Positions 1 through 63,916 of a DNA stretch of 64,000 bases are shown here, piece by piece; within the stretch, counting starts at the first letter, position 1, and the number at the start of each line of letters is the position of its first letter. The notes beneath the pieces were generated by a model. It ran no database searches and was not told the DNA's origin. It saw only the letters and a list, made by a program, of their open reading frames with translations. The position numbers were made by a program, and so were the translations under genes. Source of the stretch: Mesostigma viride (Eukaryota > Streptophyta > Mesostigmatophyceae > Mesostigmatales > Mesostigmataceae); contig RPFO01000436.1 in the NCBI GenBank assembly GCA_009746045.1, forward strand, positions 117,501 through 181,500. Direction: 5' to 3'.

Positions 1-75
1 GGCACGTATTACCGTAGCTTTGCGAATTTCCCTGCTGTTGGCTCCATCGTCGCGACTTCAGTCGGCCGAGGGGAA

Positions 76-10288: not shown

Positions 10289-10593
10289 GCTAGCTCCATA
10301 TAATCCATTAATTAATTAATTAATTAATTAAAAAATAGCTCTGTGGGGAGCATATGTAACACATACTGTAGCCCTGAGAAAGGGGCATCTATGGGGTTTA
10401 GATACAGTCTGGGCTACAACCTAGCTGCAGGTGTAGGATGTAAACTATCACCTGCTCTGGGTGCACAAGGTGCACCTGCACCACCATGCACATGTGATGG
10501 GTCATGCATCCCAATCAAGCACACACGGGGCGGCGTGGGGAACTGGCCTATAGAAGGCTTGCATGACATATGGGGTGGAAGATATATATGGCT

Positions 10594-11549
10594 GATTGGA
10601 TTGCTCTTTTCGCGGACCTCAACGCCCAGGGACGTGCGTGGCTGTTCTCGCTTTCCTTGCGGAGTGTGGGCTCGGCGTACCTTCGTGCTCTTCCCATGGC
10701 CCCCCCATTCGCCTTGGCTCCCAGCCACTACTCGGTGGCGCTCCGGCACCAGCTATATGCCCCGCAGCCTCTTGTTCCGGCCGGGCGGCCTTGTGGTAGC
10801 TGTGGGCAGCCGCTGGATCCCACGGGGACTCACTACCTTGCCTGCATGGGGGGCCAACAGAATCAGAATTGGTATTTGTATTTGCACACTGTCCTCCTGA
10901 CGGTGGTGCTCGCCATGATTCGGTCGGTTTTCCCCCACGCGAACATCCGGTCCGAGGATGCGGATGGCGCTGCCTTCTATTCCCCCAACCGGCACCGGCC
11001 TGACATCGTGGTGCTGGACTTTGAGGGGGTGGCCGGCATCTGCTTATTGACGTTTCGGTGGCGCGGCCCTTGGCTCTTAGCCACGTGGCTGGGGCCTCCC
11101 TCACGGCAGGTTACACGGCGGACCGGGCGGAGCGGGCCAAGCTCCTGGCCTACGGCGACGTCGGGCACCATCCTGTGGTGCCCTTTGTCCTGGAGGAGTT
11201 TGGGGCCATGGGGCCCCTGACCTCCGCCTTCTTCAAGGAGTGCTGCCGGCTCCGGGAGGACCGGCTGGACCTGGAGGGCCAGCGGGCCCCATGGTCGGCG
11301 CGGACCTGGACGTCATATTGGCGTCAGCGCTTGTCGGTGGCGCTGACTCGGGCCATGGCTGACATCATGCTCCGCCGTACGCGGGCTGATTTTGCGGTGC
11401 AGCAGGGCTATTAGGTTCCTCCCGTTAGGCGTTTCCATTGGTCTTATCGTAGTATAGAGCTTTGACATGGCTCTGTATATAGGTTTATAGCTGGGCGTTT
11501 GCTTTGGTTTGAGTGATTTCACTCTGCTGTAAGTACTAATTATATTTTT
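10594..11549 (+). mobile_element. RING/REL-type LINE, 5'-truncated copy P
   Basis: Carries only the end of the element: the zinc-binding-like CGSCGQPLDPTGTHYLAC segment, the PD-(D/E)xK-like nuclease region and the 3' UTR ending CTGTAAGTACTAATTATATTTTT. The reading frame shifts where a G-run after DFE is one base shorter than in copy M2. It is bounded on both sides by AAGATATAT. It forms a large inverted repeat with copy M1, centred at about 11555. Confidence 0.75.
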
Positions 11550-11558
11550 AAGATATAT

Positions 11559-12716
11559 TAAAAATATAATTACTTACAGCAGAGTGAAATCACTCAAACC
11601 AAAGCAAACGCCCAGCTATAAACCTATATACAGAGCCATGTCAAAGCTCTATACTACGATAAGACCAATGGAAACGCCTAACGGGAGGAACCTAATAGCC
11701 CTGCTGCACCGCAAAATCAGCCCGCGTACGGCGGAGCATGATGTCAGCCATGGCCCGAGTCAGCGCCACCGACAGGCGCTGACGCCAATATGACGTCCAG
11801 GTCCGCGCCGACCATGGGGCCCGCTGGCCCTCCAGGTCCAGCCGGTCCTCCCGGAGCCGGCAACACTCCTTGAAGAAGGCGGAGGTCAGGGGCCCCATGG
11901 CCCCAAACTCCTCCAGGACAAAGGGCACCACACGATGGTGCCCGACGTCGCCGTAGGCCAGGAGCTTGGCCCGCTCCGCCCGGTCCGCCGTGTAACCTGC
12001 CGTGAGGGAGGCCCCAGCCACGTGGCTAAGAGCCAAGGGCCGCGCCACCGAAACGTCAATAAGCAGATGCCGGCCACCCCCTCAAAGTCCAGCACCACGA
12101 TGTCAGGCCGGTGGTTGGGGGAATAGAAGGCAGCGCCATCCGCATCCTCGGACCGGATGTTCGCGTGGGGGAAAACCGACCGAATCATGGCGAGCACCAC
12201 CGTCAGGAGGACAGTGTGCAAATACAAATACCAATTCTGATTCTGTTGGCCCCCATGCAGGCAAGGTAGTGAGTCCCCGTGGGATCCAGCGGCTGCCCAC
12301 AGCTACCACAAGGCCGCCCGGCCGGAACAAGAGGCTGCGGGGCAAATAGCTGGTGCCGGAGCGCCACCGAGTAGTGGCTGGGAGCCAAGGCGAATGGGGG
12401 GGCCATGGGAAGAGCACGAAGGTACGCCGAGCCCACACTCCGCAAGGAAAGCGAGAACAGCCACGCACGTCCCTGGGCGTTGAGGTCCGCGAAAAGAGCA
12501 ATCCAATCAGCCGTGTGCAGAATACCCGCGTAGGTTTTCTGGTGTTTATCGATGACGCGAGCAGGGAATGCGGCGGGAGATTGAACGGAGGCGACCGAGG
12601 GAGTGCCGCGAGGGAGGTGGCGCTGTACCGCCTGAGCGGCACGGACGGGAGAACAGGCCTGCTGGATCTCAGCAGAGGCCTCCTGGATGGCAGTGACGAA
12701 GGGCAAAGGGCTGCTT
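11559..12716 (-). mobile_element. RING/REL-type LINE, 5'-truncated copy M1
   Basis: Near-identical to the 3' 1.1 kb of copy M2 but keeps about 54 nt (near 12513-12566) that M2 lacks in frame. It encodes the end of the post-RT region and the nuclease-like domain, with frame breaks at G-runs. Both flanks carry the AAGATATAT target motif. Confidence 0.75.
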
Positions 12717-12727
12717 AAGATATATAT

Positions 12728-15700
12728 TAAAAATATAATTACTTACAGCAGAGTGAAATCACTCAAACCAAAGCAAACGCCCAGCTATAAACCTATATAC
12801 AGAGCCATGTCAAAGCTCTATACTACGATAAGACCAATGGAAACGCCTAACGGGAGGAACCTAATAGCCCTGCTGCACCGCAAAATCAGCCCGCGTACGG
12901 CGGAGCATGATGTCAGCCATGGCCCGAGTCAGCGCCACCGACAAGCGCTGACGCCAATATGACGTCCAGGTCCGCGCCGACCATGGGGCCCGCTGGCCCT
13001 CCAGGTCCAGCCGGTCCTCCCGGAGCCGGCAACACTCCTTGAAGAAGGCGGAGGTCAGGGGCCCCATGGCCCCAAACTCCTCCAGGACAAAGGGCACCAC
13101 ACGATGGTGCCCGACGTCGCCGTAGGCCAGGAGCTTGGCCCGCTCCGCCCGGTCCGCCGTGTAACCTGCCGTGAGGGAGGCCCCAGCCACGTGGCTAAGA
13201 GCCAAGGGCCGCGCCACCGAAACGTCAATAAGCAGATGCCGGCCACCCCCCTCAAAGTCCAGCACCACGATGTCAGGCCGGTGGTTGGGGGAATAGAAGG
13301 CAGCGCCATCCGCATCCTCGGACCGGATGTTCGCGTGGGGGAAAACCGACCGAATCATGGCGAGCACCACCGTCAGGAGGACAGTGTGCAAATACAAATA
13401 CCAATTCTGATTCTGTTGGCCCCCATGCAGGCAAGGTAGTGAGTCCCCGTGGGATCCAGCGGCTGCCCACAGCTACCACAAGGCCGCCCGGCCGGAACAA
13501 GAGGCTGCGGGGCAAATAGCTGGTGCCGGAGCGCCACCGAGTAGTGGCTGGGAGCCAAGGCGAATGGGGGGGCCATGGGAAGAGCACGAAGGTACGCCGA
13601 GCCCACACTCCGCAAGGAAAGCGAGAACAGCCACGCACGTCCCTGGGCGTTGAGGTCCCCGAAAAGAGCAATCCAATGCCGGAATGCGGCGGGAGATTGA
13701 ACGGAGGCGACCGAGGGAGTGCCGCGAGGGAGGTGGCGCTGTACCGCCTGAGCGGCACGGACGGGAGAACAGGCCTGCTGGATCTCAGCATAGGCCTCCT
13801 GGATGGCGGTGACGAAGGGCAAAGGGCTGCTGGGGTCCAGGAGGTCAGGCGCTGCCGTTGCCAAAAGGGGCAGGAGCCGGCAGCTTTCCGCCCACGACTG
13901 AGCGACGGAGCCCAAAAATGCTGCTGGGGCCAGCCGGGCGGCACGAGTCAGACCGCAGCCACCCATCCGTGCAGGCAGGGAGGCAATGCGAATAGCATGT
14001 GGCGGGAGGTCGGGGCCCGGGACCAGCTGCGCCAAGGCCGACTGGATGCGTTCGTCGTGGCCCTCGGCGGCCAGCCGGACCTGAGCCGGAAGAGCGCCCC
14101 GGAGCCAGTGAACGACGCGAGGGTGAGCGCAAAACCACAGAAGCAGACCCTTGGTCTGCGAATCATGAAGGCGCGCAATCAAGGGCAGTACCTCAGTGCG
14201 TGCCTCGAGGGCGGCCCGCAGAGCATCGATGACAAACGCGGGGTCGCCAACCGGAACGCCGAGGACATCCAACCCATGGAGGCGCTCGTCCCGGCCCAAG
14301 AGCTGGGGCGGAAAGCCGGAGCAATCACCTTGGGGCGAGTACACCGCGCACTTGGCCAGGGTCAACTGGAGGTTGATGTCGGCCACCGCGGTCTGCAGTG
14401 CCAGCAGAGCCGCGGTGGTGTCCGGCACAGGGCCCAGAAGGTAGATATCATCCAAGTAGGCCTGAATAGCGACCGCCGGGTGGGCAGCATGGACCGCTTG
14501 GAGGCAACCCTGGAGGGGGGCGGCAAAGTACAGGGGTCCCAGGGGGTCCCCTTGCTGGGTGCCCGACCGCGACAGCAGGCCGCCGCGAGTGCCGTCCTCC
14601 ATGATGTGAACCAGTTGGCCGGGCTGGCCGTAGCACACGGCTGTCCAAGCGTACAAGTCCTCGAAGGACTCCATGACGGCCGCAAACATGCTGGCGCGGG
14701 ACAGACTGTTGAACGCGTTGTGGCAGTCGACCTTGACGACAGCGTGGGTGGGGTGGGCCTCGAGGTAGGCCTGCACCGAATGGATGAGGATATCCGCCCC
14801 GCCTGGAGTCGTCACCCCCAGCTGGGCCGCCACCGAGGTCTCACCCGCTGCGAGGGGCGGGCAGAAAAAGGCACGGAGCTCGGGCGCCTTTTGGCGGCAG
14901 ATCACTTTGCCCACGAGCTTGCGGAGCACCTCACCGCAGGCGATCGGGCGCACCTTGCCCTCGGGGGGGGCAAGACACCCTTGAGCAGAGCGAGGAGGCG
15001 AGCGCCCGCTAACCACTCGCGCGCAGCGGGAGGAACGCGACCAGCCGCCAGGTCAATGAGGGTGTCAAAGAGAATGTCCTCGCCCCCATGCCCCACCAGG
15101 ACCTCCAAGTGCTCGTAGCGCCAGCCCGACGGCCCGGTAGAGGAAGCCCGCGGGACCGCACGCATCACCTCCAGGAAGCAGTCGCGGTCCAGCCGGAGGG
15201 GGGCCGGCAGGGGGTCCGGCACGGGCAGCTGGAATCCGGGCTCCGCAGGGTGAAGAGCCTCCAAGGCCGCCAGGGTAGCCGCATTGGCGGGGGCCAGCTT
15301 GGCCATTTCCAAGCGGGTCATGGCCCGGCTGAGCTGCCCCTCGCGGACGAGGCGGATGACGTCGGCGGCCACCCGCTCGAAGTTGACCTCCCCCGACAGC
15401 CGGGCCGTGCGCGGGGGCGGCACGCCAAACAGCCCCTCCCAGTCCCCCTGCAGAAAGCGTCGGCAACGGGCAATAACCGCACCCTGGAGGCCGCGCACAC
15501 CACGCCCGAGAGGGGTGAGGAGCAGGCGGGGGGTCACCATGTGCAGTTTAAAGCCCAGCGGGTCGTCCGGAGCGGCGTGCATGCGCCGGAGAGAAACGAT
15601 TGCACATTGCGCGAAAAGGCTACGCGCGCGGTGGGGGAGGTCGGTCAGGGTAGACGTCGGGTTGATGGCGCATGCATCCCAGGGAACCGTGTCAAGCCAA

Positions 15701-22323: not shown

Positions 22324-25300
22324 TTATCTGTGTTCCTGGACTAGGCTATACACCAAGTCCCTGCGTACGAAGTACGCACTGAAGCGCTTCACGGCCATCG
22401 TAAAAAAGTCCACATCACCTCCAGAACTTGCCAGGTCAACCTGCATGAAGCATACATGCCAAAGGACAAGTTCCCGCGCATTTAGTTTATTGCCTCACTT
22501 TATTTGTAGGCGCACAGATGAAGCGGCACCACGCTCCCTCCCTCCCTCCCTCCCTCCCTCCCTCCCTCCCTCCTCCTCCCTCCCTCCCTCCCTCCCTCCC
22601 TCCCTCCCTCCTCCCTCCCTCCCTCCCTCCCTCCCTCCCTCCCTCCCCCCCCCTCCCCTCCCCCCCTCCCCCCTCCCCCCTCCCCCCTCCCGACCGACGG
22701 ACCGACCGACCGACCGACCGACCGACCGACCGACCGACCGACCGACCGACCGACCGACCGACCGACCGACCGACCGACCGACCGACCGGCCTGCCTGCCT
22801 GCCTGCCGGCCGGCCGGCCGCCCGGCCGCCCGGCCGCCCGGCCGCCCGCCTGCCCGCCCGCCCGCCCGCCCGACCGACCGACCGAATGACCGACCGACCA
22901 GCCGACCGACCGGCCGACCAACCAACCAAACAGGATTCATACAAAATGACACAGTTCCTGTATGGTGTCTCGTGGCCTTGCACTCCGCCAAAGTGCGGTT
23001 GTATCACCACTGCCCCCTGCACGTAGAAGGTCGTCATAATCTCCTGCAAACCACGCATGGCCCAGGTACCACAGATACCCCTTATTGTATCTCCCCCCTT
23101 TTATAGTGACCCCCCTGCCAACGTCATGCTGCTTGTGCCACGCACCTGGCCAAGGTACCACAGGGCGACAAACAGATGAGCCGCCAGTGCCATGAGGTTG
23201 GACTCCAGGTAAAGCGATTCCACCTCCTCGGCAGTCACCTGCGGTGGCGCGGTGCACGCGACCATACTGCTTAATAACAATGACTAATTTAATACTACTA
23301 GTCGTATACTTAGATACTAGTCATTAAATATAATGAATAGATTGGGAGCACAAGGGATACGGTTACAACCAGAAACGTGATCCGACCTCCTCGCTAGTTG
23401 TGTTCGGGGCGGGACGGTGGGCATAACGTCTATACATGGCTACATGATCTCCCAACGGAGTCATGTTATAATTTCAAGGACCCACGGTGGACAAGGCCAG
23501 GAGTGTGTGCGGTACAACCAGAAAGGGCTATGGATACAAACTCTTTCTGTTTTAATAAGCAGAAACAACTCCGGTACAACCAGAAAGGGCTATGGATACA
23601 AACTCCTTCTGTTTTAATAAGCAGAAACAACTCCGAGTGAGCAGAAAGAAGGGGATGGTAGCTCACTGAACAGATTTTTGTGCAAAGAATATCTGTGCAT
23701 CGCTCGATCAGACGAAATAGCAAGTCAACACAGAAAAAAGATGATGTGCGACCCCGTAAAACACACGTAAGCACCATAGACAAAGAGCCACCCAATGCTG
23801 GCTATTAATGGGGGGGGGGGGGAGTAACTTGTGAGGATTTCGGGGGGAGGAAAACAGTACTGAATTTTCTTGCCATGCAAAGCAAGATCTAAAACCTGGA
23901 AGGCATGGTTAGCTCCTGCAAGGAGCAGTGATGTTGGAGCACACAGCAACCCTATCTACGGCCGGAGGTAAGCCAGCAACGAAGCCAAAAGCATCAATTA
24001 GCAATACGCTCAAAAGTAGCACACTTTGTGCTGTCATCGCCGTGAGTTCATACGGAGCGCCAGTACTCATACAGAGCCGACCAGAATGTCCAGCTGTTAA
24101 ATTCCAACCATGGGCTTGTCAAAAACACTGGTTAAAAAATATTACTTGCTCCCATCGGTAGGACCGGTCTAAAGGGTAGCCAGATGCAGAGAACAACCGC
24201 CTCCGAAAACTGATTGCTGGCTCGGCATCACAGCTAAAGGTACGTCGCCACCCCCCCCAACCCCCTGGTGATGTGTGGCAGTTGCGACTGGGAAGTGAGA
24301 CCTGCGAGTTGTATCAATGGGGCTGCCTTGAGAAGCCATAGTCCAACTGCCACCCACCTCGTGCCTGCCATCAGCCGCCAAGTAGTTTCGAATAAAGTGC
24401 ACCTGCTCGGACTTGCTGGGATATCTGCAGGACGCCAATGGTATCGACATGGCACATTGAAATGGAAAAAAAATAGGCACATGACTGCGTCACATGGGTA
24501 CCAATTAAGGGACCTCCAACACGGCGCGTACTTTGATCGACAGATTGCTGTCCTGTAGTGGGATTGAATCAATCGATGCAATCATCTGCATGGTATCTTT
24601 CAAAACAAAGGGGCAACGAAAAGCGTGGCCAGACGCATGCCCGGGATCCACTGGCGTACTTTGCACAGCAAGGCAAGCGGCTTCAAGCCCAAGCTGTAGG
24701 CAATGTACAGTACACTGAACAAGTAGGAAGGCCCAAACAGGTAGGGCTGTTGGATGCAAGAGCGCACAACACTTCCAAGCTCGTGCTCATTGAATCCTAA
24801 TCCGCTCGCGAGTTCGTATATGCCCCCTATGCCTTCTATGGCCCCTATGCTCCCTATTATGCCTTCTCCGCCCTGTATGCCTTCTATGCCCCCGATGCCC
24901 CCGATGCCCTTGATGTCCCCTATGCCCCCTATGCCCCTCAAGTCCCCTCGCATGACCCCCAAGCAAACAACGAAAATTTTGTTGAAAAGACGCCGTGTTC
25001 AGCAGCATACTGTACTTTTCCTCCGCTATCGCGCACATCACTTTACGCACATCATTATATGCACATCTACTTACGCACATCAGTAAGCATTCTGCCCTGG
25101 ACCAACGAGGGCGCAGCTCACACAGCAGTCCTGATGGTCCCGACACAGAACAGGGGTGTCCTGGATGGGAAGCAATGTGCCGTCCACAGAACATGCGGGA
25201 TGCACAGACACGATGCTGGGAACTGGGAATGGCTCGAGTGCTTACTTATCATTTCAGAATGGTGTAAATACCTCGAAAAGTGCGGTCAAATACCTCGAAA

Positions 25301-28300
25301 AGTCGTTGTCCATGCCGCAGTACTCGCAAAAGTGATACCCGAGGTCGTACCCACGTGGGTTGTAGCCGCCGTACTCAAAGTCGATGAACTGGACCTCGTC
25401 TGTAGGGGGGTTGATGGATGTATGTTTAGGAAGAGACAAGATGGTGTTATCTAAGGTTGTAGCCACTGTGCTGAAAGCCCATTAAGTGGACATCGTCTGT
25501 AGGGAGCTAAAGAAGCAAAAGAAGCTGACGAAAATAAAGAAGCTAAGAAGCTAAAGAAATTCAATCAAATCCACATGTGGAGGTTTGGTGGACAGTGGAT
25601 TAATGGATAGGCACACTGACATGGGGCAGAACGAGATCATTGTTGTAATTGGACAAAGTAGCATGGCTATAGGCCGGCATAGACGCGCCTAGGGACTGAG
25701 GCAAAAAGAAAGGGCTGAGGCATCGTTAAAAGCAAGCAAGCTTCACATAAAGTTATAGTAGCATGGATGCAAAAAGAAGGGGCAAGGAAGCACAGCATAA
25801 TAAGCAGGTGCCTTTTGTTAGGTGAATCTTTGCGTTTCTGGCATCCTGGTCAGGGGCAGATTGGCCAGAGAGAGGCAGACAGTAAGGGGATGGGGTTATC
25901 AACGTTGAGTGGGCAGAATCCTCGCTGCTTCAACGAACCTCGCAGACTCACTATCTTTAAAAGTATGAAGTTTGATGAAATAAACATGAATCATAGTTTA
26001 CTTATTATCAACTTCAAAAAGATTAAAACTAGACCGTGGGTTGCATAATGCATAGCCTTGTTGTGAGTGAATTTCGTGCCATCATCGTGTGATAGCGTAG
26101 TCAACTGTAGCAGTTACTTTGGTTTCCTGCCATGAGCACGTGATAATCATGGCAAAATCTAACCTTTGGCCGCGTCAAACATGATGTTGAAGGGCAGCAG
26201 GTCGTTGTGGCAGTATAAGAGGGGCCACCCCCTCCGCCTCCAGATGGCCTGTCACAGACCCGAAACACATTATGGATTGATGACAACATGGGAGGAGGAC
26301 CCGCGAATCAGTGTTCATCGAGGAGGAAGCCCGTACTATAACTGGCAAATCATCGACAAAATCGGAAAAATAAATAAAGACTTTTAATGAGGAAGCGAAT
26401 AAGGTTTAGTAGCAAGGACAACATCAGAGGACACTTTACGACATAACAGAGTTACCAACGTTGCACATTGAGGTCAGTTAGAAGAAGAGCGAGAATTTTG
26501 AAAAAGCAGGTATTTCAGTGAGCGAGAGACTGAGGTGAAAAAAAAAAATAGACGCAGGTGCCTGTTGCCCCAGGCATGGGCACGCAATATAGACTTGTCA
26601 GCATTATGTTTTTGTAAATCATTACACAGAGGAAGGGTGGTGTCAGTTTGGGGATGGGAAAAGAAGCACAGGCACCTACAGGGCAAAGAGGTACATGAGA
26701 GGGAAACAGCACCGATGCTGATCCTGCTGACACGACGGCCACGCTCAGACGGGCGACGGTGCTGGTTCAGCCCATCAGCAGTCATTCAAACTGCAGCATG
26801 AAGGCGATACCTGCAGTTGCAGTCAGTGGCCTGCTCCTTATTTTCATTTGCTATAGAAACTGGCCGACGGGCTGGCTTGTGGGATGGACGCATGGGCACG
26901 GTGCAGCCAGGCTGGAGGTAAAAAGAAGTGAACGCGCCACAATCACGCTTAAAAGTTAATCCGACGAATGCAATAACAATTACACTACCCGGTCATGTAC
27001 GCTATAATGTACTTTGCAGTTCGTAAGGAATCTTCTGTACCCCCAGCCCCTAAATCTCAGCGCCCATGCTCTCCAAGGGCAAACAGAAGAGTATGCATAG
27101 TATTGCCATTTAGTATACATTACCCAAAAAGGTACGTTATAGTGAACGAATGATAGACTATCTGTCTTACCTCCAGTGCGTCCACCTCGGCGTGCATGCT
27201 CTCCACATGCATGCGGTGATAGGCTTCCAGCTGCTCCCCATTGAGCACGCTGCCGAGCTGGCGGGCAAGCACTGTTGTTGTGGGTGATGATTGACAGCAA
27301 TAGGCCATACCTTTGTTAGCATAGTTTGCACCGGCGGGCCAGCACTGTTGTTGTGGGTGATGATTGACAGCAAGAGGCCATACCTTTGTTAGCGTTGTTT
27401 TCACCTGTCACGCTGCCGAGCTGGCGGGCAAGCACTGACTGCACATAAATATTGCTTTTGGTTCTTCTTTTGTTATTGAAGAAAGATTCATCAAGTGCAG
27501 AGCAGTCAGCAGTGTGCCAAGCTGGCAGGCACTGTTGGTGTCGGTGGTGGCGGTGTCAGGAGATAACGGACCACAAAACTAAAACTAAGATTAAAACTAA
27601 ACTTGCAAAGCCGTTGTGATAATGTCTAGCGGCCAGAAAGCCTGCAGAGGTTACAAGGAAGGACTGCTTGCGGGGATGGCTATCAGAAGAAAAGTAGGGA
27701 TACATCACTAGTTAATTAGCAATACAATATCTTAGCACTACTATCTCGTAAGAACAGCAGCCCCGCACTGAGCTGGCAAGAACGAACGATTAAGCAGCTG
27801 CCATACAACAGAAATACGAGTCCTCCAGAAGAAATAATACTCCTCATTGCTACTGCATCGCATACACTGCACGTGCCCTGGGCGCGCCACGCACCTTCCT
27901 AATGGTGCTCGATGGTGCAGCACCTCGGGAGCGTAGAGTGCGCATATCTTTATCTGCATCTTTATCTTTATCTGTTGCTTGTCTAGATACAGGTTACATG
28001 TCATCGTCATTCTACAAATCTACACATCATATGACGCATCATCCACCCAGGATGTACTCGTGCAGAACACCAAACATCCCCAATGCACGCATGCTACTAG
28101 TAGTTTTTTTTTACGGTGAGCTGAGGTGTTACTAATCTTGTCTTCAGGATGTCCCGCCACGCACCGTCCTTAATGTACTCGCGCAGCACTCCGAAGATCC
28201 TCGGCGCCTCCCCCTTGAGCTGCGGCACGTGCAGGTCGTGGAACTTGCGCATGCGCCGGGCGATCTTGGCCGCCATGGAGGGCTCCGCGATGTCTGCGAG

Positions 28301-31300
28301 GTTTAGGCATAGGTGGGGTTTAGACATAGGCATAAGCCACAAATAACCGGCACATCACATACAAATAAGCCATGAGCCATGGAGGGCTCAGCGGCGTCTG
28401 CGAGAATAAGCCACTAAGGCACCGAGAGCAGTGGAGGGGAACAGGATGGCGACAGAGGCACAAAATCGTAAGGCAGAGGCACCGACCATGGAGGGCTCCG
28501 CGGCGTCTGTCAGAATAAGCAATGGAAGATTCCATGAGCAAAGGGGAGCCTTGGGGGAGGTGACGGCGCAGTGCATGGGTGAAGGGGAAAGAAAATGGAT
28601 GCGACGGCAACGGAATTCTGTTCAATGTTGGTAGTAGCCTGAGGATCCTTTCAATGCTGGCGGTGGCCACCCGAAGCGCGCTATCGAGGGCGCGCTCATC
28701 ATTGGGCGCGCTCTCGAGGGCTCTAGAAGAACTAACAAACAGCACCACGCTGGCTGGGGTGGTCCAGAGCGAGGCCGTGGTCGACCTTGAATCATGTTTT
28801 ACGGCTTCAGCGGTGAGTGCCCACGTCGTGGATACTTCCTACTCACAATCGCCCCCGTGGCCGGGCCAGATAGTTTGGCAGGTTCTCATGCTATTCAATA
28901 GGGAGTTTCCGGAGGCACTGGAAACGCTCTCCGGTATCAGAGCTTTTCCGGAGTCGTGCCATGGTTTGGATTGCCGTAGGATCAGTAGACGCCTATAGCT
29001 GCGAACGTCTGCGGAGTTCCTGAGTTTGAATCCTAAGAGTGCGATTATTCCAACAGCATCATCAACTGCGGCCCGACAAGCACAGCAAGCTTGAAGACAT
29101 GAATAGAGGCCGATAGCGATAGACCTATCCGCGCAATCCAGGGCGTGCCCTATCAAAAAGGGCTCCCCCCTGTCAAGAAGGTCAAGAAGGTCATCCTCCC
29201 ATCGTGAGGTCGTGCCGCACAAGCAACAACCCCCCCCAGCTGGGCTTGAAACCCCATAGACCTACACAGGCAGTCGAGCGCGCGACTTGTGAGAAAGGTC
29301 TTGATTCCCCCGTTGCGGAACCGTGCCCAACATTATCACAACATGATCGCAAGCCAACCCCCTTGCACAAGCAACGATCCCCCCCAGCTGTGCTTGAAAC
29401 CCCATAGACCTAGCTAGGCAGTCGACCTACCTAGGCAGTCAAGCGTCCGCCCCGTAAGGAACGTCTCGATTCTCCCGTTGTGGAACGTGCCCAGTATCCG
29501 GCTCCCAAACCCGGCTGACGTGATGTGGGGCAGCGCCTGGAGGCGTTTTTTTTACAGGGTAAACGGGAACGCGGGCAAGGACGAGGTGCGCTTCAGTAGA
29601 AAAGCGGGAAAGAAGGAACAGCATGGCCTACAACGACAATGGGATCACAATTATAACAAGGGGAATCCTTATTACGCAAGGGCAGCACAGCAGGCTGACA
29701 AGGGCCCCACCCCCCACAACACACAGCACAACAGCGCTGCTTCATCACTCAGCAGCACGCCAGCAACAGGCCTCACCAGCGTCTCCGACAGCAGGTCGAC
29801 GTACTCGATTCAGCTCCTGTGGTCCTATCAGTAACCCTTAACATTCATTACCTGTGTGGCGTGCAAGGGCCTCACCTGCGTCTCCGAGAGCGGTCGACGC
29901 ACTCCATTCAGTTCCTGTGGTCCTATCAGTAACCCTTAACATTCATTACCTGTGTAGCGTGCAAGGGCCTCACCTGCGTCTCCGAGAGCGGTCGACGCAC
30001 TCCATTCAGTTCCTGTGGTCCTATCAGTAACCCTTAACATTCATTACCTGTGTAGCGTGCAAGGGCCTCACCTGCGTCTCCGAGAGCGGTCGACGCACTC
30101 CATTCAGTTCCTGTGGTCCTATCAGTAACCCTTAACATTCATTACCTGTGTAGCGTGCAAGGGCCTCACCTGCGTCTCCGAGAGCGGTCGACGCACTCCA
30201 TTCAGTTCCTGTGGTCCTATCAGTAACCCTTAACATTCATTACCTGTGTGGCGTGCAAGGGCCTCACCTGCGTCTCCGAGAGCGGTCGACGCACTCCATT
30301 CAGTTCCTGTGGTCCTATCAGTAACCCTTAACATTCATTACCTGTGTAGCGTGCAAGGGCCTCACCTGCGTCTCCGAGAGCGGTCGACGCACTCCATTCA
30401 GTTCCTGTGGTCCTATCAGTAACCCTTAACATTCATTACCTGTGTAGCGTGCAAGGGCCTCACCTGCGTCTCCGAGAGCCGGTCGACGTACTCGTTGGTG
30501 CGGTCCATGAAAATGCGGACCACCACGGGCTCCACATTGCCATCGTCCGGGGTCAGTTTGAAGACTGCATTGGCCAATGAGTGATGGAGGACAGAGAGCA
30601 TCAAGCACAAAGTCAAGGCCTATTTAATTATTTAAGCATCTACTACTATGATGGAAGCGAGCATGGAGACGAATGAGCGACGATCGAGGGCCAGAACGCA
30701 TCAACTATTTACGGCTGGCCGTCTCGTCGAGTAAAATCAAAACATGGACTTTGGTTACACGCGCCACAACGTAGCCCAAGGAGGGCATGCCTTGTGCACT
30801 GTGGAGGTGTGCAGGGACCCACCCTGGGTGCTGACGGGCCGCCATCCGGGACGTGGGCACCAAATGGTGGGGGGAAAAAGGACACTTGCACATCAATAGA
30901 AAGAGAACTCCCAGGATAGGGTTGGCACTCACTTCAGCATAAACAATAGGGAGGGAAGCAGGGCGTATATCAGGATGTCTTTGCATTTTTCACTTCCAAG
31001 TTTTTGTCAATATTGAAAAGGGCGTGGAACAGCACGTACAACAGCGAGACAGCGGCAACTCGGCCCGTGTATCCGCGAGTCATCGTTAGGTAGAGGAAGC
31101 ACCCCCTGGTCCAGTACTTTTCCGTGTCTTCTCCCCCACCCTCCCCTTTGCCCCATCCCTTCCCCTTTGACCCTCCCTTCTCCCCTTTCCTTCTCCCCCT
31201 CCCTTCTCCCCCTCCCTTCCCCCTCCCTTCCCCCTCCCTTCCCCCTCCCTTCCCCCTCCCTTCCCCCTCCCTTCCCCCTCCCTTCCCCCTCCCTTCCCCC

Positions 31301-32461
31301 TCCCTTCCCCCTCCCTTCCCCTCCCTTCCCCCTCCTTTCCCCCTCCCTTCCCCCTCCCTTCCCCCTCCTTTCCCCCTCCCTTCCCCCCCCTTCCGCCTCC
31401 CTTCCCCCTTCCTTCCCTCTCCCTTCCCCCTCCCTTCCCCCTCCCTTCCCCCCTCCCTTCCCCCTCTCCCTTCTCCCTCTTCCTTCCCCCCTTCCTTCTC
31501 CCCTCCCCCCCCCACTTGTTCTCAACCCACCTCCTCATGCACACAAAGCACACAAACAACCGTCTTACGTTTCTTCTCCCTTCCCGACACACACCACACT
31601 TAGTCTCAACCCACCCACCCCTGCGCAAAAGGCACGCACGCAACCATCTTATTTCAACTGTCTACCTGTGCGTTTTTGCCTGCATGTGTGTTTATCTGTG
31701 TGCTTTTGTCTGCATGTGTGTTTATCATGTGTGTTTTGTCTGCATGCGTGCGGTTGTCTTCATACATCTGCATTGGTGGGATAGATGATTACCTTTCCAC
31801 TTGAATTCAGTTCATTTGTATTGGTATCCATTTGTATTGGTATGCATCCACTGCGTTGGGGTAGGTGATGTATGATGGGTGCACATCGATAGCATTCGTT
31901 CTAGTATGGCGGGCGCTGGTCTTGGTGATACTTGGATAATATGTCAGCATTTAGGCACTACCATTACATGCGCTCAGTTTTACTATTGCAGATTGTTAGG
32001 AAAAGCTTTGCTGAGAAACACATGCGCAAAGGCAGTTCCATGGACTAGCAAAAAGTGCAGGCAAAAGGACATTAAATAAATGCTGCCTCGAGAATTATTA
32101 GCTCACGTTTGTTGGTCAGCCCCCCAGAGATGATCGTTACTCGGATTTGGTGGCTCGAAAGCGCCGACCATCCAGGCAGCAGAGACTGGCAAACTTGCCT
32201 GTACGTACGCCCAGGAATGGACAGGATACAAAATGTAAGAACGGCCGCTATTATTCACCAACACAAAATCGAAACGCGCGCCCGGCATGCTCACATTTTC
32301 TTCGGAAATGTTGATGGCGTAAGAGGCGTGTCACAAAAGCTCGACGAGCTGTACACACATTCGTAGACTTACTTTGCAGGCTCAAAACAGCTCTCGTTGG
32401 TTTCTGACTCCACCGTGAAGTCGGCGTGCGGAATTGTCGGGTGTATAGGCCCGCTGTACAT
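22324..32461 (-). CDS. Choline/ethanolamine kinase (multi-exon)
   Basis: ATP-dependent phosphorylation of choline or ethanolamine, first step of the CDP-choline/ethanolamine routes (family knowledge). Exons placed: 32461-32373, 30564-30464, 29536-29431, 28293-28165, 27271-27171, 26248-26164, 25399-25294, 24424-24358, 23238-23146, 22440-22324 (TAA). From the second listed exon on, every junction is GT–AG and in phase. Diagnostic residues: VRIFMDRTNEYVDR; LGTFHNGRIE; Brenner-type YCHNDLLPFNIMFD; choline-kinase motif IDFEYGGYNPRGYDLGYHF followed by CEYCGMDND; C-terminal helices NLMALAAHLFVALWYLGQ and AVKRFSAYF. The first exon (MYSGPIHPTIPHADFTVESE) ends in phase 2, whereas the next needs phase 1, so at least one exon with the usual GGxTN region is missing between 32373 and 30564. 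Choline versus ethanolamine preference cannot be told. Confidence 0.9.
22528..22925. repeat. Composite tetranucleotide microsatellite
   Basis: (CCCT)n at about 22528-22690 passes into (GACC)n at about 22691-22788, then CCTG/CCGG/GCCC units, then (GACC)n again to about 22925. It lies in the last intron of the kinase gene (between 23146 and 22440). All long ORFs across it are compositional artefacts. Confidence 0.9.
23340..23475 (+). mobile_element. LINE 3' fragment in kinase intron
   Basis: Ends with ATGATCTCCCAACGGAGTCA (23445-23464), the conserved 3' hairpin of the ORF1/RT LINE family, followed by TGTTATAATTTC. The 5' limit is uncertain. A 57-bp tandem duplication follows at about 23515-23632. 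Confidence 0.5.
24818..24960. repeat. Imperfect 9-bp tandem repeat
   Basis: ATGCCCCCT-like units repeated about 15 times with substitutions, in an intron of the kinase gene. Directly seen; no coding role inferred. Confidence 0.8.
25269..25508 (-). repeat. Exon-edge echoes of kinase exon 25294-25399
   Basis: The 3' edge of the exon and its donor (TACCTCGAAAAGT on the plus strand, at 25291) recurs at 25269. The 5' edge with its acceptor (CTCGTCTGTAGGG at 25397) recurs as ATCGTCTGTAGGG near 25495. Both lie outside the exon. Confidence 0.65.
27320..27535 (-). repeat. Exon-edge echoes of kinase exon 27171-27271
   Basis: The start of the exon (ARQLGS coding region) with its acceptor is repeated upstream: as GGCGGGCC...TTGTTGTGGGTGATG at about 27333-27365, as GAGCTGGCGGGCAAGCACTG at 27418-27437, and as a weaker copy near 27517-27534. 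Confidence 0.65.
27888..28080 (-). repeat. 3' exon-edge echoes of kinase exon 28165-28293
   Basis: Two decayed copies of the exon's REYIKD-coding end lie downstream in the intron: 27888-27945 (starts ACGCACCTTCCTAATG) and 28030-28075 (GATGTACTCGTGCAGAAC). The true site at 28160 reads ACGCACCGTCCTTAATGTAC. Confidence 0.6.
28376..28520 (-). repeat. 5' exon-edge echoes of kinase exon 28165-28293
   Basis: CATGGAGGGCTC plus GGCGTCTG blocks at 28379-28402 and 28487-28511 repeat the exon start (CATGGAGGGCTCCGCGATGT at 28274-28293) with its acceptor region. They lie upstream in the preceding intron. Confidence 0.65.
29110..29330 (-). repeat. 3' half echoes of kinase exon 29431-29536
   Basis: 29261-29330 repeats about 70 nt of the exon 3' half including its donor (true copy 29427-29494), with roughly one difference in four bases. 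A weaker second copy lies at about 29121-29205. Stops and indels make them non-coding. Confidence 0.65.
29755..30463 (-). repeat. 98-bp minisatellite built from kinase exon 2 edge
   Basis: Units begin at 29863, 29961, 30059, 30157, 30255 and 30353. A degenerate one starts at about 29765, and the series ends at the real exon edge (30451). Each unit repeats CCTCACCTGCGTCTCCGAGA, which is the end of exon 30464-30564 with its GT donor, followed by intron sequence. Up to seven extra copies of a genuine 5' splice site therefore lie in the intron. Confidence 0.92.
31125..31530. repeat. (CCCTCCCTTCCCC)-type polypyrimidine array
   Basis: About 400 bp of CCCTTCCC/CCCTCCC units in the long intron near the start of the kinase gene. 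The opposite strand is pure purine. ORFs across it are artefacts. Confidence 0.9.
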
Positions 32462-34978
32462 GGTTCGCGGTCAATGGCTCCCCGGGCTAAGTCAAAAGAC
32501 GCGAAGGTCTCTCAGGTTAGGTTATTCTGGCTAGCGAAAATGTTGGGAAGATGTAAACCCTAACCCCGGCCTGCAGGCATACCATTTAGTTTCCCATGGT
32601 AACCACGTGTTATGGCTGCCGCGGTGCCATGACTGCCCCCAGTATGATAAGTGAAGCATTAATGCATCTAGTTTGACCAACGCACTCCACGGTTGTTCTC
32701 GGCTTTGGCACAGCTACCGGGGGGCTAGCGTCTTATGATGCTACCAACAGGAAAAGCAAACACTTGCGCACATTCCGTTTTATGTGGTAATGGCTGGCAC
32801 ACGCAAGGCACAGGCCATAATTTTGCTTCGTTGAATCAGGGTTGAATCCCTAAATACCAGTCGGCGCAGGTCGTGGTAGTAATACTTCTGCTGTATGTCT
32901 AGTCTAGCCCGAGTGTATGACTAGAGAGTCTGCACTTCGCTGCTGTAAGCCCAAGCTCAAGCTTGCTTGCTACCGCATGTGCCGGCGTGCCGCCACGTGT
33001 TCTCGGACTAGTGTTTCCGGTTTTCCCAAACAAAACAAATGCTGCTGCATGCCACCTTCATTAGGATTCGCTGATACTCATTTCCCCTCTCACCTCTTTG
33101 GTCCATAATTGGCTAATAAAATATACCCATTTCCCCGAAAATGCTGCTGCATGCTCCTGAGTAGCTATTTTACCATGGAACGCAGTACTATGCCCTAAAA
33201 TACGCCAACAGACATGTGCACTCTTTTGTTGGGCTGCATAGCTTCATCACGGGCATTCGCTTGTGTGGGACATCGGAACACCGAACATATCTGTTTAGAT
33301 CTCCAGGTGCCACAAGGGCGTCGATCGATAATTCGATGTATAGATCATGGATCCGCCTACGTCTGTGTCCATTCTCTGTGTCACTCATTGCCGTCCATGC
33401 CGTGAGGAGTAGCAAATTACCGGTTATGCAGCGTCCCGCATCGAATAGGTTGGTTTGAGCTACTAAGGCCACCTAGAGAAAATTCTGACTGGCATCTGGT
33501 TTCGAAGTGCAGTACGGACCGCTGCAACTAAATTACATTCATTGGCGGCACTGGTTCGATACCTATTCGATGCTCCGCGCCTTTATAAATCGAAACCTTT
33601 CTTTTTAAGGCGCATCACGCTTGAATTTAAAAGGTTTTGTTGTAGACATGTTGCTTTGGAGTCCATATATTCGTATGATGACAGGAAAGTAAAGCAGCTA
33701 TAAATAATAGGCTAGCTTCGGGAGGACAGCAAGTGCTCAAGGCACGCACACAAGCACTAACGCACACCGATGCACGTCGTTAGTCTTTGTGACATGCACA
33801 AATTGTGGCACGGGCTCGGGAAGCCGCCGGCTGGCATACTACAGCAGGAATGGCAACCTCATCATGTGGCCGGTATTGAGCATAGCTTCATGCGTGAAAT
33901 AATAAATAGAAACCTGTCTTCCTACGCCACACTTTGATGGCCAATAATGACGAGGGGTAGTTATTGCGGTTCCCAGAAGTATTCAATCGACACATTTTTA
34001 ATTAGCAACGTGTTTGCTGATAGCATCTGAGCCGAAGTGATCGACTCGGCAGGCTTCAGCAACGATGTGCCATGCATATGCATGGGTGGCTCCGGACGTC
34101 TGTCGTGCTCATGCATCACACATTGCATGGATCATGCAGGGATGCGCATGCATAGTGTCACTCTACGCGACCTTCATGTGAACCTTCATAATATGTCGAA
34201 TAAACCATTTACGCTCGTCGCCCCGGCCAGCTTTCCCCGTTTCAGATTTAATAGCATCTTCACGCGTTCCCATGCTCGCACATCCATATTTCAAGTTCAA
34301 ATACACACGTTTCCCAGCCATAGCATATACAGATCGAGCCTCTCTTCTCCACACAGCAGAGGTGATGGTGCCCATGTGCTTGCAGCTCTCCGAAGTAAAT
34401 TTAGCATACTGGGGTTCAAATACTCCCAGGCCACATTTGTTTGTCTGCAGGTTCCTTAGCTATGTACGTGATCGCCTGATGGGGCAAAAAGCACTAGCCA
34501 CACAGCCCCCAGAGGACATGCATACCCTTGACCCGAAGTGCTCAGAGCTACTTTCCAAGAAGCCAGGCACACTCAGTCTACCGTCACTTGGTTATTTATT
34601 GGCCCATGAAACACGCATTGCCCTTAGTGCCCACTTTTTGACTGGCCAGGTACCATAAAGTGCTACTGGCTCATGAAACAAGTGCTGTCACAAGCTTTTT
34701 TATATTGAGTCATGATACATGGATTGCCCATTGTTGACTGGATCATTTAAAGATGCAACTGGCTTACTGGGACATAAACCTTTTCAGTGGTTTTCCATTT
34801 GCGGGTATTTCCTCGTAAATGGTGGGAGAGCGATCGCAGCAATGGTGCTCACCACTAGACACTCCCGGCCAGTTAGGCTCGAAACACACGCCCTGATCAA
34901 GCATGCTGTTTCCGGCCCCACCGTCTAGGTCATCTAGTCGCTCTACACGTAAGCCAGCCGTATTTTCAATGCACACGG
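32462..34978. other. Intergenic region between kinase and TONSL genes
   Basis: About 2.5 kb with ordinary composition and only short unconvincing ORFs. I see no domain, tRNA or long repeat. It should contain the kinase promoter (near 32470) and the TONSL 3' end. Confidence 0.5.
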
Positions 34979-35109
34979 ATACACATTTCCATCACCATTC
35001 ATCTTCATCATCCTGAACGACTCGAACACGCGGACAAGATAACGGCAGGCTCGAGCTACCATGGTCCGGATTCTCCCGATTTCTGGCCTGCGCTGGTTGT
35101 CTCCTTGAT
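34979..35109. repeat. About 130-bp dispersed repeat, copy 2
   Basis: Same sequence as 20137-20266, in the same orientation. It begins 18 bp after the TONSL stop codon in the gene's direction, so it probably lies in the 3' UTR. Its end diverges from copy 1 right after CTCCTTGATA. Confidence 0.7.
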
Positions 35110-35126
35110 AAACCTTGTCACATTTT

Positions 35127-60877
<25,751 letters not shown>

Positions 60878-62207
60878 GTTTACGGTATGGTGTGCAGAAC
60901 GGCGCGCGTGTATATGTGGTATAGTGTGGCTGTAGGGTGCGTCTGTAACGCGTACACACGCACGAGATGGGAGCAGGGGAGAAAGACGCCGATTGTAAGC
61001 GAGCTGTTCGTAAGTGAATGCTGGACTCGCGGTCAAAATTCCGCTTCTCTGTGCAGTCATGTTGGCGTCAAATGAGAAGAGAAGAGCTTATGTGAAAAGG
61101 ATAAAACGGGGACAAGAGGGAGATTAACGAAGCCGAGGCAGCCAACATACCGATGTCCGTGTCAACAGCTGTCTAAAATGCGAGTCTGGAGTGCAGGGCG
61201 GATGCAACGTTGCAGATGCGATGCAGCTGGCGCGGTCATGAGCACAGCGGGAAACCTGCCGCACAGCAACGCTAGGCTTCGCGAGAGCCACCCCTCACGA
61301 GAGCCACCCCTTAGGGGGTCGGTTGGCCCGGACCTAGCGCTCTAGCATTTTCTTCAGGAAAACAGCCAGGCGCTGACTGCTGATGTGCACCTTCCGACTG
61401 CTTCGGCTATGGCGGGTTGTCACGGTGTATTGCTATGTGCACAGCGGCATACGGCTAATGACCTTGTTTAGATGAGATGCCGACTTCTAACTTTGCATCC
61501 TGCTTTCAAGTTATGACGCCGTAAGGTGCCATTTTCTGATAGAACTATTGCTTAGAGCACGCCATAGAATTTAATTGTATTATTGCTGCGGGACGCTATG
61601 ATTGTCGTGTCATATGGAAGTTCCCTCGATTTTGGGCTAGGCAATTGCAATCCGAATTCCCACTGCCACGCCATCGCCCGGGGGTGCAGCAGCAGCTGTG
61701 GAAAGGCCCGACAAGTTTCTCCCGCGAAATTTGAAGCTCTAACCTGGCTATAGCCTATAAGACACTTCAATGTCCGCGCCAAAAAAAATTGTGGGTGGCC
61801 TGTTCTTGTCCGTATTAAACCGTAGGTTATTCAAGTAGATGCTTCTCTTAAAGCTGAACAAATAGTCTCTGCTGCACACAATCATGTGCGGCGTGGGCAA
61901 CAACAACAACAACAACAACAACACGCACTGATCTGATTGCCACTTGTACTGCAAAGTCTACCACTACAGATTCTCTGCTGCACATGTGCGGCGTGGAACA
62001 ATAACAACTGCAAAGTTTGGACGGCACGATGGTGGCATTGGGAGATTTTTCATTGGAGAGGCGTGGCCAGTTGTGGAAGTCTTTCTGCTGCGGACTGCAA
62101 TGGAAGGTTCTGGAGCCCGTCTGCGTAAAGCCTGCCGACATTCACTTGCTGCCACCATTACTCGTTTGCTTTCTCGACTGCGACAGTCTTACCGTGGCCG
62201 CGTCACC
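60878..62207. promoter_or_regulatory. Divergent intergenic region (TONSL and PDI-like gene)
   Basis: 1.3 kb between two start codons pointing away from each other, so it must hold both 5' UTRs and promoters; no core elements can be named. It includes an (AAC)n run at 61899-61924 and a direct repeat of CTCTGCTGCACA..TGTGCGGCGTGG at about 61868 and 61975. Confidence 0.5.
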
Positions 62208-63916
62208 ATGGCTAGGTCGTCGTATTCTCGTCGGCTTAGGTATAGTTTAGTGCTCGTGCTTGCCACGGCGTTGCTGCTAGGGAATGTGAGGCCGCAAGAG
62301 GAGGATGCGGAGGGAGGGGAAGACGCCGAGGGGGGTGACATGGGCACGGGGGATATGGATTATGGGGGCTATGGAGATGATTATGGTGGAGGCTACGGGG
62401 GGGGTCCGTCAGATGGACCTGAAAGTCACATTAATGGCGTGTTGGATTTGGATGACATGACGTTTGATAAAATCGTGGATGGCAGCAAACACGTCTTCGT
62501 CGAGTTTTACGCGCCATGGTGCGTTGCTGCTACATCACAGTCGTGCTCTTAGCAGCATTGCGTGGCATTCACTTAAGACAAGCAATGTCGGTAGCCACAA
62601 TATGTAGACGTGCTTTTCCTTCGTGGCGCGCGCTTACCATCCTTGGCATGTTATATCTCTTTGGTGGCATTGCACTCCACAGGTGCGGCCACTGCAAGTC
62701 GTTCAAGGAGGAGTACAGCGCGATTGCCGAAAACCTGGGGTCACAATCCAACCTCCTTCTTGCTAAGGTGAGGAAACCTAAACAGCCGGGTGCACTTGGG
62801 AGGCCGGCGTTCCGTACACTCCGCCGCCCCTGCATTAGTAAGCCCTGTCACTGTTTTGCGATTAAGTTGAAGTAATTTCTTACAGGTAGTGGGACAGCAG
62901 ATTTGTCGCCTTACCATTTTCTGTGTGCGCATGTTGCTGAGCTTTTTTTTCCGTGTGCTAATGGCTTTATCAGCCCCTCTGCGGGTAGTAAGTGGGCTGG
63001 CTTGCTTGCTTTGCCCTTTGTTCTTTTCTGGTACCAAGGAGGAATGATTCTTTTGAGCAATCACATTGTCGCTCTTGGTGGATAATGTGTTTTGGATACT
63101 GGAATATGCACTACACTTCAGACTCACATGTTTATTTGTCCCCTATCACTTTCTCGAAAATGTGGATGATTGGGGTTTGTCTACTGTAAAAGGTTCTATC
63201 TGTGCAATTATTCCATGGTTACATTCCTGGTGTGCCTTAGTCCATGAATAGGTCTAAATTTTCAGCACATAAATACAGGATATGTGTCCTGAATATAGAG
63301 CATCTCTTGTTGGCATGCGCACCCAGAAATTAGTAATGACACATGTAAACAGCAGTTAGGTTTATTCCCCATACAGGCATGTCCCTATAAAACGCCATTG
63401 GTTGCTAATTTTATATGTGCAGGTGAATGCAGGAGATAAAACCATCGGGCTGGATGGGGGCTCGTCCGACTCTGTGGAAATCCAAGCTTGCATGCGTGGG
63501 ATGTTGTTTGTTGCATCTGTCCATCACCACTAGCTGCGCCGCTGTTTCACATACGTGTGTGGCCCCCCGAAAAATGTATAAAAATCTAAAATGAAACAGA
63601 TGAATAGACTATCTGGCACATTCGCTGCTGACAAGTACCGTGCTGTAAATATATATATATACATGATCAGAATATATATACATGTCTGCTCGCGCCCTTG
63701 CTATGTGCGGGTCAATGCGGGTGAGAAGGATCTGGCATCAAAGGCCGGGCTGTTTATATAGGGCTGTTGATGTAGGGATCGGATAGGGATCCTATTCGAT
63801 CAGTAGGGATGGGTATCTATAGGGCATTGAACCATAACCATGGGTTGGTCCATTTGTTCCGTGCAGGTCAACGCAGATGAGAACAAGGGGCTTGGGGAGC
63901 GCCTGGGCATCGAGGG
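62208..63916 (+). CDS. Protein disulfide isomerase-like, first three exons (partial)
   Basis: A secretory-pathway thioredoxin-fold oxidoreductase. ATG at 62208 (context GTCACCATGG). Exons 62208-62518, 62683-62767 and 63867-63916 splice in phase with GT–AG. The product begins with a signal peptide (about residues 1-30, hydrophobic YSLVLVLATALLLGN), an acidic Gly/Tyr-rich stretch (GGEDAEGGDMGTGDMDYGGY), then a thioredoxin domain. The active site WCGHCK is split by intron 1 (APW | CGHCK) and followed by FKEEYSAIAENLG; exon 3 gives VNADENKGLGERLGIEG. The rest lies beyond the window, so whether it has one or two thioredoxin domains is unknown. Confidence 0.88.
63419..63760 (+). repeat. 5' exon-edge echoes of PDI exon 3
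   Basis: GTGCAGGTGAATGCAGGAGA at 63417-63436 and GTGCGGGTCAATGCGGGTGA at 63706-63725 resemble the true GTGCAGGTCAACGCAGATGA at 63861-63880. The first keeps a usable AG acceptor and reads VNAGDKTIGLDGG before running on. The second has lost the AG and hits a stop soon after. Confidence 0.8.

Follow-up and report, generated by a model that had tools for sequence, protein, structure and literature searches.

A stretch of 64,000 nucleotides from Mesostigma viride (Streptophyta; GenBank assembly GCA_009746045.1, contig RPFO01000436.1, positions 117,501 to 181,500 of the forward strand), hereafter the window, was analysed for partial copies of exon ends, here called echoes, that lie in the introns adjoining those exons. 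Three genes were modelled between positions 22324 and 63916, two on the minus strand and one on the plus strand. A choline/ethanolamine kinase gene (22324..32461, minus) has 11 exons and 10 introns, and its spliced open reading frame of 361 aa matches PF01633 (E 4e-72). The second minus-strand gene (35130..60877), with 20 exons and 19 introns, has a spliced open reading frame for a TPR + acidic + LRR protein with TPR and LRR matches; from the order of its domains we take it to be TONSOKU-like. The plus-strand gene (62208..63916) encodes a PDI/thioredoxin-domain protein and has its first three exons in the window (exon 1 at 62208-62518); five further exons were modelled outside it, and one exon may be missing.

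The models give 31 introns in the window, and so 62 splice junctions, with consistent reading phases. The median length of these introns is 1067 nt; for six annotated core-Reinhardtinia algae, median intron lengths of 198-343 nt are given in passages of PMC8226300. Arrays detected with Tandem Repeats Finder (TRF) cover 29% of intron bases versus 2% of exon bases. Very long arrays of microsatellite type lie within introns at 59448-60419 (972 bp, GGA-rich), 42120-42334, 46081-46209 and 53220-53649. The donor of TPR/LRR intron 6 appears to be GC (GAG|GCGGGT, 52460-52466, minus), a choice made for reading phase.

Two kinds of query were aligned to the introns. The exon-only query consisted of the 50 exon nt at each junction, a match being a score of at least 30, and the junction-spanning query joined the exon edge to ten intron bases, with a cut-off score of 16. 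Exon-only edges matched their own intron at 12 of 62 junctions; no match was found among 1740 pairs with mismatched introns, 62 inverted comparisons or 56 comparisons with the intron on the exon's opposite side. A preliminary description of this DNA had proposed a self-alignment against mismatched exon-intron pairings, and the enrichment in the exon's own intron that it foresaw was obtained. The polarity it described, with 3'-edge copies downstream of the exon and 5'-edge copies upstream, was likewise recovered. Junction-spanning queries found 43 direct, rightly placed partial copies, spread over 20/62 junctions (14 donors and 6 acceptors), compared with 3/1740 mismatched pairs and 0/62 inverted queries. 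Echoes were found at 15 of 34 exons, in agreement with the earlier count of more than a dozen, and in 17 of 31 introns. Segments from the exon interior gave matches at score 25 in 3/57 cases when taken 25-75 nt from the junction, and in 0/46 when taken 50-100 nt from it. The identity of the window echoes at cut-off ranges from 71 to 100% and several contain indels, which is unlike an assembly duplicate.

The near-identical cases are plain donor-crossing arrays with units of 98 bp (kinase exon 3), 73 bp and 63 bp (TPR/LRR exons 2 and 10). The 98-bp array, 7.4 copies long (29769..30493, minus; TRF), crosses the donor of kinase exon 3, which ends at 30464, and contains seven extra exon-end copies; the 9-nt donor is identical in six of these. 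The remaining kinase echoes, all on the minus strand, include a decayed one at the 3' edge of exon 4 that retains GT (75%; 29259..29310; query alignment). Exon 5 has two echoes with AG at its 5' edge, spaced 104 and 213 nt (28376..28509), and two more at its 3' edge (27885..28079). Exon 6 has three echoes of its 5' edge (95%, 100% and 72%; 27333..27541) and one of its 3' edge (74%; 27031..27075). At exon 8, a 50-nt echo of the 5' edge (82%; 25455..25504) is accompanied by a 22-bp-spaced repeat across the donor (25266..25281), and the 3'-edge echo of exon 10 lacks GT (23051..23074).

The TPR/LRR gene (minus strand throughout) has three echoes of the exon 2 3' edge with a period of ~73 (58904..59082; TRF and query alignment), two of the exon 3 5' edge (57132..57563), three of the exon 3 3' edge at spacings of 212, 400 and 512 (56386..56726), and six of the exon 5 3' edge (53653..54115). 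Single echoes represent the 5' edge of exon 7 (51 nt, 88%; 50951..51001) and the 3' edges of exons 8 (49837..49867) and 9 (79%, score at cut-off; 48029..48056). Two echoes of the exon 10 3' edge, with a period of 63, carry an identical donor 9-mer (46340..46439). Exon 15 is echoed on both sides, by a 36-nt copy of its 5' edge (92%; 40588..40623) and by three copies of its 3' edge with a period of ~89 (40139..40340; TRF and query alignment), and the 3' edge of exon 19 by one copy (74%, score at cut-off; 36482..36519). In the PDI gene, the two echoes of the exon 3 5' edge within the window (63417..63727, plus) are marginal, with scores of 15 and 14 under the cut of 16; a score of 15 was reached by 2 of 1000 block shuffles. 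Echoes do occur at 3/10 junctions of the PDI exons beyond the window. The earlier claim that all three genes carry echoes is borne out for the kinase and TPR/LRR genes, and for the PDI gene only farther out.

To extend the sample, gene models were built with a small gene finder that recovered 18/19 donors and 17/19 acceptors of the TPR/LRR gene, itself part of the training set. The sets added in this way lay outside the DNA covered by the preliminary description. On the same contig, the PDI exons beyond the window together with a BAR-PH-ArfGAP gene and a GNL3L-type GTPase gene (both named from Pfam matches, the GTPase model being counted minus a weak terminal exon) gave 34 echoes at 20/48 junctions, compared with 1/1012 mismatched pairs. 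The TCP-1/Cpn60 chaperonins (PF00118; 58 matches in the 440-Mb assembly) were picked as a conserved family ahead of seeing their DNA. Eleven loci were taken, some without end exons, leaving out an intron-less match (C2011) and the matches on C1912 and C1106; exclusion of a near-copy, L029, left ten loci on nine other contigs. Echoes were found at 22/122 junctions, 42 in total and in 9/10 loci; the controls gave 18/6616 mismatched pairs and 0/100 on the wrong side. Pooling all sets, 62/232 junctions have echoes, the chaperonin rate (18%) being lower than that of the window (32%).

The extent of the repeated unit was assessed from the nearest echo at each junction, two of the 20 window junctions being excluded. 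The intronic part of the unit was also repeated in 13/18 testable nearest echoes (p<0.05 versus positions in the same intron) and in 15/19 when compared with other introns, indicating that the exon echo is mostly one end of a tandem unit, composed of an exon end with the following intron start or of an intron end with the following exon start, and not a copied fragment. Echo spacing in the window and contig genes has a median of 102 nt (quartiles 89-137, top tenth above 238 nt), and in the chaperonin loci a median of 85 nt (quartiles 48-108). Mismatches between exon and best echo per junction fall at 42/189 third codon positions versus 50/390 other positions (Fisher p 0.005), and over all 43 echoes at 70/387 versus 105/775; this excess suggests that the exon continued to change, under selection, once the duplications had arisen. 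Identity was higher in the nearest than in the farthest echo at 14 and lower at 6 of 21 junctions in the window and contig genes (p 0.12), and higher at 3 and lower at 4 of 9 in the chaperonin loci.

Two closely related copies of a chaperonin locus, which represent either haplotypes or recent duplicates and share 97.9% identity over 3.4 kb, are distinguished by five indels of at least 5 nt. At least two of these are local tandem duplications within one intron (18 nt, imperfect, and 7 nt). The preliminary description had proposed a continuing process; these differences suggest that local duplication in introns does continue, and neither insertion spans a junction. Between loci L029 (C1641) and L030 (C887), ~3.1 kb is present only in the C1641 copy (L029 3546-6670).

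We conclude that the echoes are probably mirages, as such structures are called in amphioxus: minisatellite-like tandem duplications with units, mostly of ~50-140 bp, that extend across a splice junction. All in direct orientation, the copies lie nearly all on the intron side facing the edge in question, and cross or near the junction. The tandem duplication across splice junctions that had been put forward, lengthening introns and leaving copies of differing age, is upheld by the range of identities and by the unit-wide homology. Replication slippage or unequal exchange would generate local tandem duplications all through the introns. A unit within an exon would usually be removed by selection; one that crosses a junction would be tolerated, since splicing at the exon-side site still yields the right mRNA, and its second copy would turn into intron. 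Purifying selection would keep the exon copy almost unchanged, so that it serves as a near-still reference against which old edge duplications can be recognised for longer than those between intron sequences. Repeated rounds would lengthen the intron and scatter decoy splice sites. The phase-consistent reading frames with their Pfam matches would agree with undisturbed splicing.

Several observations weigh against this interpretation. Five of the 18 nearest echoes have no significant homology past the exon edge. Several decayed units have an intronic part whose similarity falls below the mean of the simulations, though it stays inside their 5-95% range or just reaches its limit; at the TPR/LRR exon 15 acceptor, for instance, the exon side is 92% identical and the intron part 62%, the simulated mean being 79% (5-95%: 62-96%). 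Controls for the contig genes were not clean at the cut (inverted 3/48, wrong-side 2/42), and the chaperonin loci gave an inverted match at 1/122 and matches of exon-interior segments (50-100 nt) at score 25 in 2/76. Chaperonin echoes are also unevenly distributed, 8 of the 22 junctions belonging to locus L032, and the models outside the window are predictions, a profile match overlapping 38/71 of the chaperonin exons used. Finally, the excess of echoes at exon edges, described below, lies above most simulated values, so that neutrality with a frozen exon may not suffice. In L032, one predicted exon (3205-3407, minus-strand reading) appears by eye to hold a diverged copy of its own start; it was kept in the count and seems to be an echo taken as coding by the gene finder.

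That edge excess bears on an alternative in which duplication, or its retention, is targeted to exon ends beyond general tandem duplication, for instance through transcription- or splicing-linked breaks or through the advantage of a spare splice site. In the unmasked window, one-sided copies in the own intron are as frequent for intron segments (340/1025) as for edges (18/62), which speaks against targeting. When arrays of at least three copies were masked, the edge/intron ratio at score 25 was 2.4 (confidence interval 1.5-4.5) in the window, 2.8 (1.6-4.5) in the contig genes and 2.9 (1.7-4.8) in the chaperonin loci, and at score 30 it was 2.4, 4.7 and 4.3, respectively. These values exceed those from simulations of even duplication in introns beside near-constant exons, some of whose parameters have no independent check (1.16-1.85 and 1.06-1.53 in two simulations at score 25; 1.10-1.54 at score 30). 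In the masked introns of the window, segments lying 100-200 nt away from the junction were also echoed more often than those past 400 nt (0.169, n=124, versus 0.068, n=192). Events were counted in all 116 introns with arrays collapsed to two copies, or to one unit if of short period, in place of masking. This lowers the excess at score 25 to 2.0 (bootstrap 1.6-2.6; edges 55/232, intron segments 354/3008), with ratios of 2.5 (1.7-3.6) at score 30 and 2.0 (1.1-3.4) at score 36.

By these models the frozen exon accounts for much, though not clearly all, of the edge excess, and there may be a modest bias towards junctions. Targeting as such we consider rather unlikely; a process aimed at exon ends is hinted at by the twofold excess after collapsing and set back by the similar raw rates and by simulations that reach 1.85. 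The broader proposition is doubtful: that in this lineage tandem duplications truly arise, or are kept, with special frequency at splice junctions, with mirages at more than a quarter of junctions, junction-crossing duplication as a leading route of intron lengthening, and exon-anchored copies as a datable record of that growth. Two other attempts at this comparison were set aside. One, restricted to introns that lack internal repeats, was circular at score 30, such introns having been chosen for no internal match at that score. The other, a first array mask with a ratio of 4.3, had also taken out two-copy intronic duplications, overstating the edge excess, and was replaced.

Templated insertion, in which polymerase-theta-type repair or template switching copies an exon edge into the intron with no tandem duplication, would fit the five nearest echoes that lack unit-wide homology, and also some nearest echoes lying 246-610 nt from the edge in the window and contig genes. 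Such processes should yield inverted copies as well, and inverted matches are rare (0/62, 3/48 and 1/122 in the three sets); most nearest echoes, moreover, keep the unit-wide homology. This explanation is accordingly very unlikely.

A role in splicing, with echoes conserved as recursive-splicing ratchets or as regulated alternative sites, would account for the AG|GT kept in many of them. Several donor echoes in the window score equal to the real donor, matching it over all nine bases. With exon-only queries, however, GT was kept in 17/22 donor echoes, a single array contributing seven, and AG in 8/9 acceptor echoes. Retention of GT is not clearly greater than that of the next six intron bases (98/132), and use of 40/43 echoes would introduce a stop codon, positions being approximate where the alignment is gapped. 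GT and AG retention of this kind would not demonstrate selection for those sites, and we regard a splicing role as slightly less probable still than templated insertion. A better conservation of intron parts than of exon parts, seen in alignments that included ten intron bases, was taken as alignment bias, exon-only queries giving no clear GT retention. An assembly artefact or collapsed haplotypes, for which nothing speaks except that the copy number of the near-identical arrays may be wrong, is scarcely credible given echoes of 71-100% identity, several with indels, that recur in unrelated genes.

The recurrence in a conserved chaperonin family suggests that mirages are common in a large genome. 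Discussions of intron lengthening usually centre on transposons and repeats. Here duplications adjoining an exon can be dated against its conserved edge, so that the pace of intron growth could be read from single genomes. Kinase intron 3 poses a question for splicing, namely how the exon-side donor is chosen with six copies of the same nine bases behind it.

Outside the three genes, the window contains an intron-free frame of 1242 aa as scanned (61-3789, plus) for an ABC-2/ABCG-like half-transporter (Pfam ABC2_membrane and ABC_tran), its neighbours being very intron-rich. Near-identical repeats, some inverted and some direct, are clustered at 10590-13831; the cluster has 548-nt arms, 99% complementary and separated by a 25 nt gap, and direct copies spaced 1.17 kb, and resembles nested or rearranged transposon copies. 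Two open frames have a reverse transcriptase domain (PF00078; 13376-15052 and 21046-21771, both minus); scanning of viral contigs found no relative of the first. To the left of the window, several near-identical multi-kilobase coding units, probably a transposon family, are repeated over ~54 kb (C1657 28551-82208).

Among known systems, introner elements are similar sequences dispersed across unrelated introns. The echoes do not show this pattern, exon edges matching other introns in 3/1740 and 18/6616 pairs versus their own at 20/62 and 22/122 junctions. A human study is said to describe internal tandem repeats that change gene structure. In potato, a tandem duplication across an intron-exon boundary is described in PMC4974935 as having given rise to a new intron. 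As in intron gain by tandem duplication (potato, Drosophila and the AGGT model, from parts of PMC4974935 and PMC2891723), the duplication here provides extra splice signals; there the duplicate is the new intron, whereas here, according to the gene models, an existing intron grows. Introns of the green algae Chlamydomonas and Volvox are reported in passages of PMC3887541 to be richest in tandem repeats, with a density rising towards the intron ends. Repeats crowd introns and the vicinity of junctions in both cases; unlike the echoes, exon-carrying repeats are not described in those passages.

The original mirage report is said to be a study of Adh3. The preliminary description had held that no described system matches these echoes, which was not borne out, as mirages are known from amphioxus in the parts of PMC3087553 and PMC3902484 available to us. 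The units given there are of 10-72 and 150-160 bp, and the amphioxus mirages are reported to leave splicing undisturbed and to show length polymorphism. Among the papers listed, judged by titles and abstract openings, no algal or genome-wide copies of exon edges were recognised, and the two lancelet papers were the only relevant ones listed for the term mirage. As far as these sources extend, the two systems agree in that the unit crosses the exon-intron junction, both boundaries are affected, copies may be diverged, and many but not all copies keep AG/GT. Units are in the minisatellite range in both, 10-160 bp as published and, in the present genes, spacings with medians of 102 and 85 nt. They differ in lineage (gene content and composition here suggest a green alga), in the often decayed state of the copies here, and in extent, with 62/232 junctions here versus single genes there, so that the lineage and density of these mirages may be new.

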